Origin: Marinitoga hydrogenitolerans DSM 16785
GTDB lineage: Bacteria; Thermotogota; Thermotogae; Petrotogales; Petrotogaceae
Length of the DNA: 64,000 nt
Assembly (NCBI RefSeq): GCF_900129175.1
Contig: NZ_FQUI01000004.1
Coordinates: 1 to 64,000, forward strand
Direction of reading: 5' to 3'
Shown: positions 4,741 through 10,326 of the stretch, one piece after another
How the letters are laid out: each line of letters opens with the position of its first letter
Position numbering within the stretch: the first letter of the stretch is position 1
Translations under genes and position numbers: made by a program
The notes under the pieces: generated by a model
The model's database searches: none
Seen by the model: the letters and a program-made list of their open reading frames with translations, nothing else
What the model was told of the DNA's origin: nothing

Positions 4741-5541
4741 TTAAAGAAAAAATAACAATCCAAATTCTTCAACCTTATAATCTAATCCTTTTGGAATAAC
4801 TATTGTTTTAAAATCTTTGAAAGACACGAAAATACCAAAACCTTTTATTATTTCATTTTTAACCTTTTTAATATTAAAATATTGTGTTTTAAATTCTTCA
4901 GGTGAATTTGCTATAACAAATGGACTATCTTTTAAAAATTTTTTACCCTTTTCTATATGAACTTCTCTAGGTCTTCCCCAATCATACAATCTATATGTTA
5001 AATCAGATGTTTGTTGTATTTCTAGCAACATAGAATTTGGACCTAATGTATGAACAACCCCTGCTGGTATAAATAATAAATCATTCTTATTTAAAATAGT
5101 TGGTTTAAAAATCTCTTCCCATTTTTGTTCTTCTATTGCTTTAATATTCTTTTTAATATCATTAGAAATAAATATTTCATTTTTCTCATTTAAAAAATAC
5201 CATGCTTCTGTTTTTCCCCATGGCTCATTCTCAATTTCATTAGCAAACTTATCGTCTGGATGAACCTGAATCGATAACCATTGGGTTGTTGATATTAACT
5301 TTAGCAATAATGGAATACGAGGGAAATCTTTCCCCAATAATTCTTTTATCATTTTAGATGGCCTACCATAACTTTTTCCACTCTTTAAGCCTATTAATTC
5401 AGTTTCATATTTTTCAACACCAGAAAATAACCACACTTCACCTATTTTATCCATGCCATTCTTTTTAAACAATTCATTTAATTTTTTATCTCCCCAAACC
5501 TTCTCAACAAAAATAGGAGAACTTATCAATACTTCATTCAT
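4741..5541 (-). CDS. manA: Mannose-6-phosphate isomerase, class I
   Basis: The protein interconverts fructose-6-phosphate and mannose-6-phosphate. It is a cupin-fold type I isomerase with zinc-site motifs: LSIQVHPDD (His ligand), GKTEAWYFL (Glu), FIPAGVVHTLG (His), then QQTSDLTYRLYDWGR with the catalytic Arg region. At 266 residues it is shorter than the roughly 300-320 of the family. The ATG at 5541 has GAGGTGG and lies 10 bases after the GH4 stop; a start seven codons earlier is less likely. The reading frame stops in FGLLFFL just after a run of six A/T, and another frame stays open to the terminator, so a frameshift may have trimmed the C-terminus. Confidence 0.9.
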   Translation of the reverse strand: MNEVLISSPIFVEKVWGDKKLNELFKKNGMDKIGEVWLFSGVEKYETELIGLKSGKSYGRPSKMIKELLGKDFPRIPLLLKLISTTQWLSIQVHPDDKFANEIENEPWGKTEAWYFLNEKNEIFISNDIKKNIKAIEEQKWEEIFKPTILNKNDLLFIPAGVVHTLGPNSMLLEIQQTSDLTYRLYDWGRPREVHIEKGKKFLKDSPFVIANSPEEFKTQYFNIKKVKNEIIKGFGIFVSFKDFKTIVIPKGLDYKVEEFGLLFFL

Positions 5542-5551
5542 AATTTCCACC

Positions 5552-7003
<1,452 letters not shown>

Positions 7004-8578
7004 CTAAAATTTGGTTAAAATATTTAATAATTTTCTTCTATCAGCACCATTTTCATAATACCAATACGAAAGAGTTGTCGGCATTTTTTTTAAAGAATAT
7101 TTTTCAACAATCCTTATTAAAAATTCTGGTAATTCTATTCTGATATTCCACTTGATATCATATCTAGAATAATTTCTTACAAATATATCCATCAACTTCT
7201 TTTCTTTTTTATTTAAATTAAAATAGTTAGCTATAAATTCATTATAACTGGACTTTTTCATTCTTTCAAAGAAATGCCTTGCTAATTCTTTTCTTGCATT
7301 TATAAATTCATTACCTTTTAACATTTCTATTATAAACCATTTCACATAAAAGTCATCGCTAAAGGTTAAATCTTTTATATCACTTAATATTACATTTGGT
7401 TTATTTAAGCTTGCTATATACATATGAACAAAAAGTCTTTTTCTTTTTTCAAAATCCATTTCTTTTAATTTTATCACAACTTTATTGAATTCTTTTTCAA
7501 AATATAATTTACCATATTCATTTATTATTGCAAAAGGTGAAAATATATCTGGTGTAATATTCAAACCTACAATAAGTTTCCTAATTGTATTTCCTTTTAT
7601 CTCTTTTACTTTTCCGTTTATAATAGCTGAAAGACTTTTCCTCGAAATATTTATTTTTTTTGATACTTCTGATATATTAACTATATAATTTTTAATAAAA
7701 GTTCTCAATTCTTCAGTAATTTTATATGAAGATTCTTTTGTAACTACAAACTTTTTTAAATAATTAAACATTGAAACATAATTTTCTTTTGAATTCCTTT
7801 TTCCTTTTTCTGGCAACCTTCCCCAATAATAAGAGATTATTGGAGCATATGAGTATAATTTCCCAATATTTTCATTATTCACTTCAAAAAATGTATCGAA
7901 AATATCAAAATAATTCATGTTATTTTCAAAATAATATCCAGTATAATACATCAATTTTTTTGAAAGATATATCGCTTTTTCTAAGTCAAATGACTTTAAA
8001 TACCATGACCAATCATTTAAAGAATTAATTATTCCAACTCTATGAGGAATTTCTTTTGATAATTTATATGATTTTTCAAAATATTTCCATGCATCTTCAT
8101 ATTCTTTTCCTTTTATTTTCTTTCTCGCCTTTCCCAAATAAATAAATGCTTCTGTTGAAGGATCAGATTCATATATTTTACCCCAAAGTCTTGTTTTTTC
8201 ATTCCATTCCATTATATTTTCTATATTAATCAAAACAGAAGAAACTATTTTTCTGGAATTTTTTGGAATCTTCGAATAATTTTCTTTTAGATAAAAATAA
8301 AGATTTTTAGCATTATCATAGTCTTTTATTAAAAATAGATAAGATAACTTTTTTGCTAAAAGTATATAATGTAATGTTTTTGAATTATTATGTATTAAAC
8401 CCTTTTCTATTTCTATTAAAGCTTCTTTTCTATTTCGTTTCCAGTCATATTCCAAACTTTTAAAAAGGTGATGCCAACCATCGTGAGTAGTTTTTAATAT
8501 CATTAAGTTTAAAAAAGGTTTTGCAAATGACCCATAATATGCTAAAATATGGAAAATTTCCTGATTTTTCTTTCTCAT
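7004..8578 (-). CDS. Large regulator with TPR-like repeats and a central HTH
   Basis: A 524-residue cytoplasmic protein with no signal peptide. Residues about 40-260 are helical repeats of TPR character (for example EAFIYLGKARKKIKGKEYED and DAWKYFEKSYKLSKE). A helix-turn-helix lies near 290-330 (VNISEVSKKINISRKSLSAI). Helical C-terminal repeats follow. TPR plus HTH recalls the RRNPP peptide-responsive regulators, but there the HTH is N-terminal, so homology is not claimed. The start at 8578 has AAGGAG. It leads the operon with the GH4 enzyme and manA and is divergent from a 52-residue exported peptide gene. Control of the sugar genes and sensing of the peptide are inference. Confidence 0.65.
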   Translation of the reverse strand: MRKKNQEIFHILAYYGSFAKPFLNLMILKTTHDGWHHLFKSLEYDWKRNRKEALIEIEKGLIHNNSKTLHYILLAKKLSYLFLIKDYDNAKNLYFYLKENYSKIPKNSRKIVSSVLINIENIMEWNEKTRLWGKIYESDPSTEAFIYLGKARKKIKGKEYEDAWKYFEKSYKLSKEIPHRVGIINSLNDWSWYLKSFDLEKAIYLSKKLMYYTGYYFENNMNYFDIFDTFFEVNNENIGKLYSYAPIISYYWGRLPEKGKRNSKENYVSMFNYLKKFVVTKESSYKITEELRTFIKNYIVNISEVSKKINISRKSLSAIINGKVKEIKGNTIRKLIVGLNITPDIFSPFAIINEYGKLYFEKEFNKVVIKLKEMDFEKRKRLFVHMYIASLNKPNVILSDIKDLTFSDDFYVKWFIIEMLKGNEFINARKELARHFFERMKKSSYNEFIANYFNLNKKEKKLMDIFVRNYSRYDIKWNIRIELPEFLIRIVEKYSLKKMPTTLSYWYYENGADRRKLLNILTKF

Positions 8579-8599
8579 ACTTCAACTCCTTTTTTTACT

Positions 8600-8628
8600 A
8601 TTATACTATATTTTTCCGAATATGGGAA
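8600..8628 (-). promoter_or_regulatory. Promoter of the regulator-GH4-manA operon
   Basis: On the minus strand TTCCCA (8623-8628) and TATAAT (8600-8605) are separated by 17 bases. The -35 is weak, as expected for an activated promoter. Confidence 0.55.
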
Positions 8629-8672
8629 GTTATTAAATAAAAAATATAAATGTTACAAAATAGCATATTTTT

Positions 8673-8691
8673 AAGTTGTTAAAAACAACTT
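8673..8691. promoter_or_regulatory. Inverted repeat in the divergent control region
   Basis: AAGTTGTT and AACAACTT form a perfect 8-bp inverted repeat around AAA, between the promoters of the regulator operon and the peptide gene. No T run follows, so an operator is more likely than a terminator. Confidence 0.5.
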
Positions 8692-8700
8692 ATACTCTAT

Positions 8701-8767
8701 CTTTCAAAACCATATGAACTTGAAAATCATATGGAATCATGTATAATATAATTGAAAACTTTGAAAG
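8701..8767. promoter_or_regulatory. Peptide-gene promoter nested in two inverted repeats
   Basis: A promoter is visible with TTGAAA (8720-8725) and TATAAT (8742-8747), spacer 16. CCATATGA (8710-8717) and TCATATGG (8727-8734) are perfect inverted arms 9 bases apart that bracket the -35. Outside them CTTTCAAA (8701-8708) and TTTGAAAG (8760-8767) form a second perfect inverted pair enclosing the promoter up to the ribosome-binding site. The layout suggests a repressor or activator operator. Confidence 0.6.
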
Positions 8768-8779
8768 GAGCGTGATACT

Positions 8780-8938
8780 ATGAAAAAAATTACTAAAACA
8801 ATAGTTATTTTAACCTTCTTGTTTGTTATATTATTCTCATCAATTACTTTTGGAGGACCTTTAGATGGTACCGATTCTACAAATATAACTCAAAATTCTG
8901 CTGTTTTTACTTTAAATAGTGTTGATTTAAATCAATAA
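8780..8938 (+). CDS. Small exported peptide, 52 residues (candidate signal peptide precursor)
   Basis: A short gene with AAGGAG nine bases before its ATG and a promoter just upstream. The product begins MKKITK, continues with a hydrophobic stretch ILTFLFVILFSSITF, and ends with a polar tail GGPLDGTDSTNITQ... to DLNQ of about 27 residues. This is a classic N-terminal export signal followed by a small mature peptide without cysteines. A terminator follows immediately. It is divergent from a TPR/HTH regulator and upstream of an HD-GYP gene. No family was recognised. A signalling role is inference from size, export signal and neighbours. Confidence 0.7.
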   Translation: MKKITKTIVILTFLFVILFSSITFGGPLDGTDSTNITQNSAVFTLNSVDLNQ

Positions 8939-8958
8939 GGGGTATCCCCCCTTTTTTT
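8937..8958 (+). terminator. Terminator between the peptide and HD-GYP genes
   Basis: AAGGGG and CCCCTT pair around a 5-base loop, followed by a seven-T run, starting at the peptide stop codon. Readthrough would be needed for the HD-GYP gene unless it has its own promoter; none is obvious in the 19 bases left. Confidence 0.7.
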
Positions 8959-8976
8959 ATAAAGGTTGGTGGATTG

Positions 8977-10326
8977 ATGAAAAAAGATACTCTCATAGTC
9001 GCAGTTGTGTTTTTTAATATCACTATATTTGGAAATAATATAGATAAAACAATCTCATTTCAAAATGGGATCTTTTATTATATCCTTTTATTTTTACTTG
9101 TCGTAACTTCTATTATTATTACACTCTTTATTGACAGAAAAACCTTAAAGAAGAAATATTTAGAAAAAGAAAATGAATTAAAAGGTTTAAATTTAGACTT
9201 AGACAGTGCTAATAAAGAGTTAGAAGATTCTTATAAAAAAATAGAAAAATTAAATTCTTCTATAATAAAAATCCTTGAATTGTCTTCATTCTTTGCTGCA
9301 CCAAAATTAATGGAGAAAGATTTTGAAAAAAAAGTTTTAGATTTAGCTATTGAAATAATAGAACCTGCAAAAAATGGCTCAATATTTTTATTTAACGATG
9401 ATAATGCAAAAATGGTTTATGCCAGAGGTTATGATTATAATAAAATTAATGAATTAAAGTTAAAAAAGCAGGATCTTATTGTTCCCGAAAAATCTAAAAT
9501 AATAAAAGAAATTCATAATGTTAATAAATATAGAATGTCTGAAGATTTATTTAATGAATTTCATAAATTAGGTGGAAATTTAAAAGAAACTCTTATTACT
9601 CCTATTATCTTTAATAGTGAAACCTTTGGTATTATAACTTTAGATATTCACAAAAACGAGTCTACAAAAAGATTTGAAGATTATCATACAAAAATTATGG
9701 ATTATTTTGGTAAAACTTTTGCGGGTTTTTTAAAAATGCTAAATTTTATAAAACAAGAAGGAAAATTCCATAAAGATATTGCATTGACTCTGGTAAAAGC
9801 TTTGGAATATTACGATGATTATACTAGAGGTCATTCTGAAAGAGTTGCAAATTGGGCTTCGTTGGTTGCTGAAAAAATGAATATGGATAAAGAAAAAATA
9901 GAAAGAATATATTGGGCTGGCGTGTTACATGATATAGGAAAAATTTTTATTCCTCAAACTATATTAAATAAGTCCGGAAGATTGACTCCAGAAGAATATG
10001 AAAAAATAAAACTTCATCCTGTAAAAGGAGAAGAATTAATTGATAAAGTTGAAGAAATGGCGGATATTTCAAAAATCATACGCCACCATCATGAAAGATG
10101 GGATGGAACAGGATATCCAGATGGTTTGCTCAGAGAAAATATTCCTTTAGAGTCAAGAATATTAGCTGTTGCTGATAGCTTTGATGCAATGATCAGCAAA
10201 AGACCTTATAAAAAACCACTTACAAAAAAAGAAGCTATCTTTGAATTAAAGCGCTTATCAATGAAACAATTTGATGGGAAGGTTGTATCCGCATTTATAG
10301 AAATAATAGAAAAAGAAGATATATAA
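8977..10326 (+). CDS. Membrane-anchored GAF/HD-GYP protein, probable cyclic-di-GMP phosphodiesterase
   Basis: A 449-residue protein. Two hydrophobic segments near 5-20 and 30-52 anchor it in the membrane. A coiled coil follows (about 55-100), then a GAF-like domain (about 105-245). The C-terminal HD-GYP domain (about 260-449) shows HSERVANWASLVAEKM, the HD pair in LHDIGKIFIP, and HHERWDGTGYPDGL. All metal ligands of an active enzyme appear present. The ATG at 8977 is preferred over an in-frame TTG one codon earlier. It follows the small exported peptide gene and ends next to the stop codon of the convergent MFS gene. Confidence 0.88.
   Translation: MKKDTLIVAVVFFNITIFGNNIDKTISFQNGIFYYILLFLLVVTSIIITLFIDRKTLKKKYLEKENELKGLNLDLDSANKELEDSYKKIEKLNSSIIKILELSSFFAAPKLMEKDFEKKVLDLAIEIIEPAKNGSIFLFNDDNAKMVYARGYDYNKINELKLKKQDLIVPEKSKIIKEIHNVNKYRMSEDLFNEFHKLGGNLKETLITPIIFNSETFGIITLDIHKNESTKRFEDYHTKIMDYFGKTFAGFLKMLNFIKQEGKFHKDIALTLVKALEYYDDYTRGHSERVANWASLVAEKMNMDKEKIERIYWAGVLHDIGKIFIPQTILNKSGRLTPEEYEKIKLHPVKGEELIDKVEEMADISKIIRHHHERWDGTGYPDGLLRENIPLESRILAVADSFDAMISKRPYKKPLTKKEAIFELKRLSMKQFDGKVVSAFIEIIEKEDI

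Follow-up and report, generated by a model that had tools for sequence, protein, structure and literature searches.

A divergent gene pair of Marinitoga hydrogenitolerans, probably an exported peptide signal and its receptor, belongs to a Thermotogota-wide family

Does the small exported peptide encoded divergently from a helical-repeat regulator in Marinitoga hydrogenitolerans DSM 16785, a member of the thermophilic, sheathed Thermotogota, act as a signal for that regulator? The question was raised by an earlier note on a 64,000-nucleotide stretch of contig NZ_FQUI01000004.1 (the window), which proposed that the peptide, or a fragment of it, controls the regulator and thereby links population or envelope signals to sugar use and cyclic-di-GMP. 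The three open reading frames on which that proposal was built were found where it had placed them: a regulator of 524 aa (7004–8578, minus strand), a 52-aa propeptide with an ATG start (8780–8938, plus strand; MKKITKTIVILTFLFVILFSSITFGGPLDGTDSTNITQNSAVFTLNSVDLNQ) and a membrane HD-GYP protein of 449 aa (8977–10326, plus strand), for which ATG at 8977 is a likelier start than TTG at 8974. The promoter and ribosome-binding site of the peptide gene were also found, the former with a −35 element TTGAAA (8720–8725), a 16-bp spacer and a −10 element TATAAT (8742–8747), the latter as the Shine-Dalgarno sequence AAAGGAG (8764–8770, plus strand), which orthologs keep. Promoter and conserved box, a putative operator of the regulator, together span 34 bp (8715–8748, plus strand; ACTTGAAAATCATATGGAA; PWM score 31.6). 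As had been described, the HD-GYP gene lies behind a terminator, a hairpin and T-run 3′ of the peptide gene (8937–8958, plus strand) that is visible in the sequence and kept in the ortholog alignment, with a folding energy that is ordinary within the window (z −0.15). On the minus strand, a GH4 alpha-glucosidase gene (AglA; 5552–6991; NCBIfam NF041089) begins 12 bp behind the regulator and is followed by a manA-like mannose-6-phosphate isomerase gene (4741–5562; Pfam PF20511, 2.5e-7; TIGR00218 below cut-off), both of them weakly linked neighbours. We also noted a second conserved element, ATAACTTCCCAT, at 8621–8635 of the window and in orthologs, which reads towards the regulator and lies near its own −35 element.

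The peptide evolves as a protein. It is present in 6 of 6 Marinitoga, among which dN/dS is 0.08 in the signal part and 0.37 in the mature tail; the propeptide carries an export signal at about residues 1–24 and a polar tail at about residues 25–52 (GGPLDGTDSTNITQNSAVFTLNSVDLNQ) with a TDS core. Homologs of the regulator occur in 43 of 61 close genomes and, often in several copies, in 61 of 103 Thermotogota genomes and 32 of 38 genera. When 84,980 species genomes were searched with two sequence patterns, the family turned up in Thermotogota-type genomes and, outside these, in a single Dictyoglomaceae MAG. Pairing was scored at about 100 loci under fixed rules (an ORF of 28–125 aa with a Shine-Dalgarno sequence of at least 4 bases, a positive start and a hydrophobic segment, divergent and starting within 450 bp), with 405 other genes of the same loci as controls, a set from which small ORFs overlapping large genes were also left out. 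A divergent exported small ORF (median 47 aa) accompanied 63 of the 97 full-length homologs whose upstream DNA was long enough (64 before removal of the doubtful L049) and none of the 405 control genes; an earlier, stricter test had given 23 of 43 homologs against 0 of 192 controls, and a few further peptides beyond the rule-passing set were recognised by eye. All three regulator copies in the M. hydrogenitolerans genome are paired, and two copies are cut by contig ends. A chance small ORF was rejected on the control count and the coding selection. Peptide and regulator are, close to certainly, real and co-inherited pairs, and the pair in the window is one member of a Thermotogota-wide family. 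Two outcomes had been named beforehand as speaking against the proposal, homologs mostly lacking an exported ORF and an unconserved peptide; the majority of homologs proved to be paired and the peptide to be under coding selection.

The architecture of the regulator is given with high confidence by an AlphaFold2 model (mean pLDDT 92.3, pTM 0.90), which predicts a TPR-like helical domain at residues 1–283 (helical repeats to residue 277), a Cro/C1-type (XRE-type) HTH in the middle at about residues 284–346 (7541–7729, minus strand) and an all-helical C-terminal domain at residues 349–524, for which PDB searches gave no match. The HTH, whose Cro/C1-type domain lies at about residues 290–346, was also called by Pfam (HTH_3/HTH_26) and gave a SinR-like HTH match with Foldseek. 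The TPR-like helices and HTH that had been read from the sequence are thus borne out by the model, the Pfam HTH and the detection of TPR_12 in 7 of the 39 homologs scanned, although Pfam calls no TPR family in the 524-aa regulator itself. Because the protein is all-helical, contains an HTH and has no evident membrane segment, its ligand should be cytoplasmic. An anti-phage defence family was rejected, as PADLOC gave no consistent match.

Peptide promoters across the phylum have in common a box, ACTTGAAAAYCATATGGAA, that runs from the −35 element into the spacer and is followed by TATRAT. A matrix built from 38 sites gave 88 matches in 900 kb of loci and 0 in 451 kb of shuffled sequence; since the 900 kb include the sites used for building the matrix, independent support comes from the sites at other positions. 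Such sites precede target operons (L039, L110, L113 and L114), orphan peptide and RiPP cassettes (L046, L049 and L068) and regulators whose peptide had been missed, and the box was also present at L194, one of the three pairs of this genome, which was fetched after the matrix had been fixed. The sole perfect match in the M. hydrogenitolerans genome is the peptide promoter of the window (8719–8734). As only peptide promoters stood out in a genome-wide search (at C4 for the window pair, C67 for the second pair and C71 for the third), a wider box regulon in this genome was rejected; a one-mismatch site lies at C60 inside CRISPR-like genes, and the HD-GYP gene of the window has no box of its own. 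The regulator may bind this box.

Among 90 loci with 2 kb of DNA on the peptide side, a radical-SAM gene (recognised by CxxxCxxC, within 3 kb) was co-oriented with the peptide in 35, compared with a background in the window of 1 in 52 genes that serves as a rough guide only, and a radical-SAM RiPP cluster is the commonest peptide-side operon; an HD-GYP gene was found in 6 of the 90. The earlier note had missed both these clusters and the operator-like box in the peptide promoter. Scans of representatives confirmed the HD_5 domains and the radical-SAM domains, the latter being for the most part nearest to maturases of the SPASM peptide type; they are related to the CefB, PapB, CcpM and TIGR04463 maturases, yet below those cut-offs. 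In the RiPP loci the radical-SAM gene comes after a small Cys-rich precursor: the second pair of this genome (L152, G000:C67, 304–2711) heads a RiPP-like cluster made up of the peptide, a 29-aa precursor (MNILKRIVSGKIPLGGCTNRSQRCADLTQ), a radical-SAM maturase and an ABC ATPase, and near-identical precursors occur in L146 and L046. Given this separate precursor ORF, the exported peptide was rejected as the RiPP precursor of these loci. It might still be a product in its own right, an antimicrobial or surface peptide whose regulator responds to something else, as its small size, its export signal and the neighbouring RiPP clusters with ABC exporters would allow. We consider this very improbable, because in RiPP loci a separate precursor ORF already adjoins the radical-SAM gene, as in L152, only 5 of 55 exported peptides have a Cys in the tail, and one-to-one pairs of peptide and regulator keep recurring in the phylum.

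The window pair itself has the HD-GYP gene in place of a radical-SAM RiPP operon. The product had been described as a membrane GAF/HD-GYP protein, of which the HD-GYP part stands, with a Pfam HD_5 match (4e-48) and intact HD and GYP motifs (HDIGK 318, HHER 371, GYP 379) from which activity is predicted; Pfam finds HD_5 but no GAF domain in this protein, and a weak GAF_2 match in the HD-GYP analogue of L054. All six Marinitoga genomes retain the peptide, HD-GYP and MFS genes in synteny, and an HD-GYP neighbour recurs in two other lineages (L052 and L054), so the adjacency first noticed in the window is a conserved one. It raises the alternative that peptide and HD-GYP protein form the working unit, in which the peptide would act on the enzyme at the membrane and the regulator would control only peptide synthesis. 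In G006 (L035), where GH4 is interrupted and the reading frame of the regulator is broken, peptide and HD-GYP gene are both intact, which suggests that the peptide may have another use. The majority of pairs, however, have no HD-GYP neighbour, and the HD-GYP protein of the window appears from its sequence to expose only a short stretch outside the membrane, so that we regard such a unit as quite unlikely. With the peptide taken instead as a signal to the regulator, the peptide or its HD-GYP neighbour may link that signal to cyclic-di-GMP control. The proposed general link to sugar use was not upheld: GH4 is missing in one Marinitoga (G005) and interrupted in another (G006), elsewhere in the family other genes adjoin, and any link of the pair to sugar use is weak. 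In Marinitoga lauensis (L038) frame breaks affect GH4, manA and PgeF as well as the regulator and therefore look like assembly errors, and they were left out as evidence of decay.

The family comprises 55 distinct peptides in 31 genomes, with up to six different ones per genome. A T-x-[SG]-like core, defined only after the sequences had been inspected, is present in 37 of the 55 (shuffled mean 13, maximum 20). An internal repeat of about 13 residues is present in two propeptides that come from other families of the phylum, ANDPPDVDNLESV occurring twice in that of L052 and DYDPPDGEVVDGV twice in that of L054, as expected of a precursor trimmed to the repeated unit. The repeats have DPPD in common, and both propeptide genes (L052:4233–4484 and L054:5818–6042) are followed by a 36-aa ORF and an HD-GYP gene. 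Distances between mature peptides covary with those between TPR parts (r 0.36, p 0.005) and least with those between HTHs (0.11); the covariation vanishes when only pairs with under 50% regulator identity are considered, and common descent may account for it. These tails bear on a further alternative, in which the peptide is read in its own cell as a monitor of secretion or of the envelope: slow export or envelope stress would leave unexported propeptide or returned fragments to bind the regulator, and no signal would pass between cells. Such a monitor would have the same anatomy of exported peptide and cytoplasmic receptor, and the slow evolution of the signal part agrees with it, but tails that are diversified between paralogs and repeated within two propeptides are more in keeping with specific signals than with a general sensor of export, and the usual outputs are RiPP clusters; we think it unlikely.

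The divergent genes are probably a peptide-signal and receptor pair in which a tail fragment returns to bind the regulator, the peptide being the likely ligand. The propeptide would leave the cell through the Sec pathway, and trimming would reduce it to a fragment of the polar tail. This fragment would re-enter the cytoplasm, probably via an oligopeptide importer (the genome encodes four SBP_bac_5 importer proteins), and bind the helical-repeat part of the regulator. Through its central HTH the regulator would occupy the box over the −35 element of the peptide promoter, and the pair would thus control its own signal. Because this promoter is near consensus, our best guess is repression that is relieved by the peptide, giving positive feedback. 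The output would be the genes behind the peptide, mostly a radical-SAM RiPP cluster and in Marinitoga the membrane HD-GYP enzyme, reached by read-through or from a promoter of its own. On balance, and with less assurance, we favour the broader view that separately evolved intracellular peptide-pheromone receptors (TPR, central XRE HTH and a new C-terminal domain) provide phylum-wide quorum sensing in Thermotogota, with many parallel channels per genome; these would govern radical-SAM RiPP clusters, to which Marinitoga and two other lineages would add the turnover of cyclic-di-GMP. To our knowledge, Gram-positive bacteria and their phages are the only described sources of intracellular peptide-pheromone receptors. 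If our reading is true, intracellular peptide signalling arose, or spread, beyond the Gram-positives and has a phylum-wide counterpart in Thermotogota; candidate genes would be at hand for the peptide signalling that has long been reported from Thermotoga, along with testable signals, operators and dozens of RiPP clusters, as yet uncharacterised, from heat-loving bacteria.

The nearest likeness is to streptococcal Rgg/SHP systems such as PdrA/SHP with wgk of S. mutans (PMC8092268), which also combine a divergent small exported peptide, a cytoplasmic regulator with HTH and helical repeats, an adjoining radical-SAM RiPP operon (in Thermotogota a feature of the family, at the 35 loci counted above) and a promoter box near −35, AATTGTXTATATGGGAT in streptococcal Rgg (PMC8092268) and the phylum-wide box here. 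Sharing of the box between peptide and target promoters is seen at family level (L039, L110, L113 and L114), and in this genome the box marks peptide promoters only. Unlike Rgg/SHP, the pair belongs to Thermotogota, its TPR-like part precedes the HTH, its C-terminal domain has no PDB match, and its peptides combine a full Sec-type signal with a polar, acidic tail where SHP is a short hydrophobic peptide; a sequence relation between the two was not detectable. RRNPP(A) systems more widely (Rap, Rgg, NprR, PlcR, PrgX and AimR) resemble it in a receptor gene adjoining a propeptide gene, here short and exported, at 63 of 97 homologs and at none of the 405 controls, in helical repeats with an XRE-type HTH, and in many paralogs per genome with distinct peptides. 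RRNPPA receptors, described from Firmicutes and their phages, carry the HTH at the N-terminus and have five or nine TPRs (PMC12700828, PMC10075063), whereas here the HTH at 284–346 lies between helical repeats and a further, C-terminal domain. The Pfam scan of 39 family members listed HTH and TPR families only and no RRNPP-specific family, PDB profile searches returned only generic TPR proteins and HTHs, and Foldseek gave nothing at E ≤ 0.001, with RapF at rank 44 (E 0.09) for the full length and PlcR at rank 12 (E 1.0) for residues 280–524. RRNPP membership was rejected on the central HTH and the lack of a profile or fold match. By analogy, the layout would work like RRNPP, above all like Rgg/SHP with RaS-RiPPs, though the regulator fails the RRNPP definition.

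No description of the regulator and peptide family was found in the literature covered, which omits most subscription journals, and to that extent we agree with the earlier note that no system with this layout has been described. A large RRNPP survey covered Firmicutes and viruses only (PMC10075063), and a survey of thermophiles gave no complete peptide system, citing only a report from Thermotoga maritima (PMC6022435). According to the survey, that report (Johnson et al. 2005, cited in PMC6022435) connects a small peptide with population density and exopolysaccharide; the phylum and the small size of the peptide are what it has in common with the present pair. Most genomes of the T. maritima group lack the regulator. 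The T. maritima signalling peptide, TM0504, presumably sits at the groES locus, and at that locus of T. maritima-related genomes we found no exported small ORF of this family.

The family also includes loci of other composition. About one third of regulator homologs have no detectable peptide, some still keeping the box; at L060, L098, L103, L106, L116, L125, L143 and L144 the box is kept with no recognisable peptide, and ABC, MFS or other genes lie behind it. The homolog in the Dictyoglomaceae MAG (L181, JAPYWU010000110.1) is the C-terminal part of a regulator at a contig edge and a possible contamination. Peptide cassettes with the box, some with RiPP genes, occur without an adjacent regulator at L046:7557–9359, L068:8986 and L049:8000, and are possibly served by a neighbouring pair. 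A branch of regulators of about 475 aa (L071, L130, L133, L134 and L136) differs in its promoter element, AAATTTGAGCCTCAGAAAACATTGTG, and in the greater length of its peptides.
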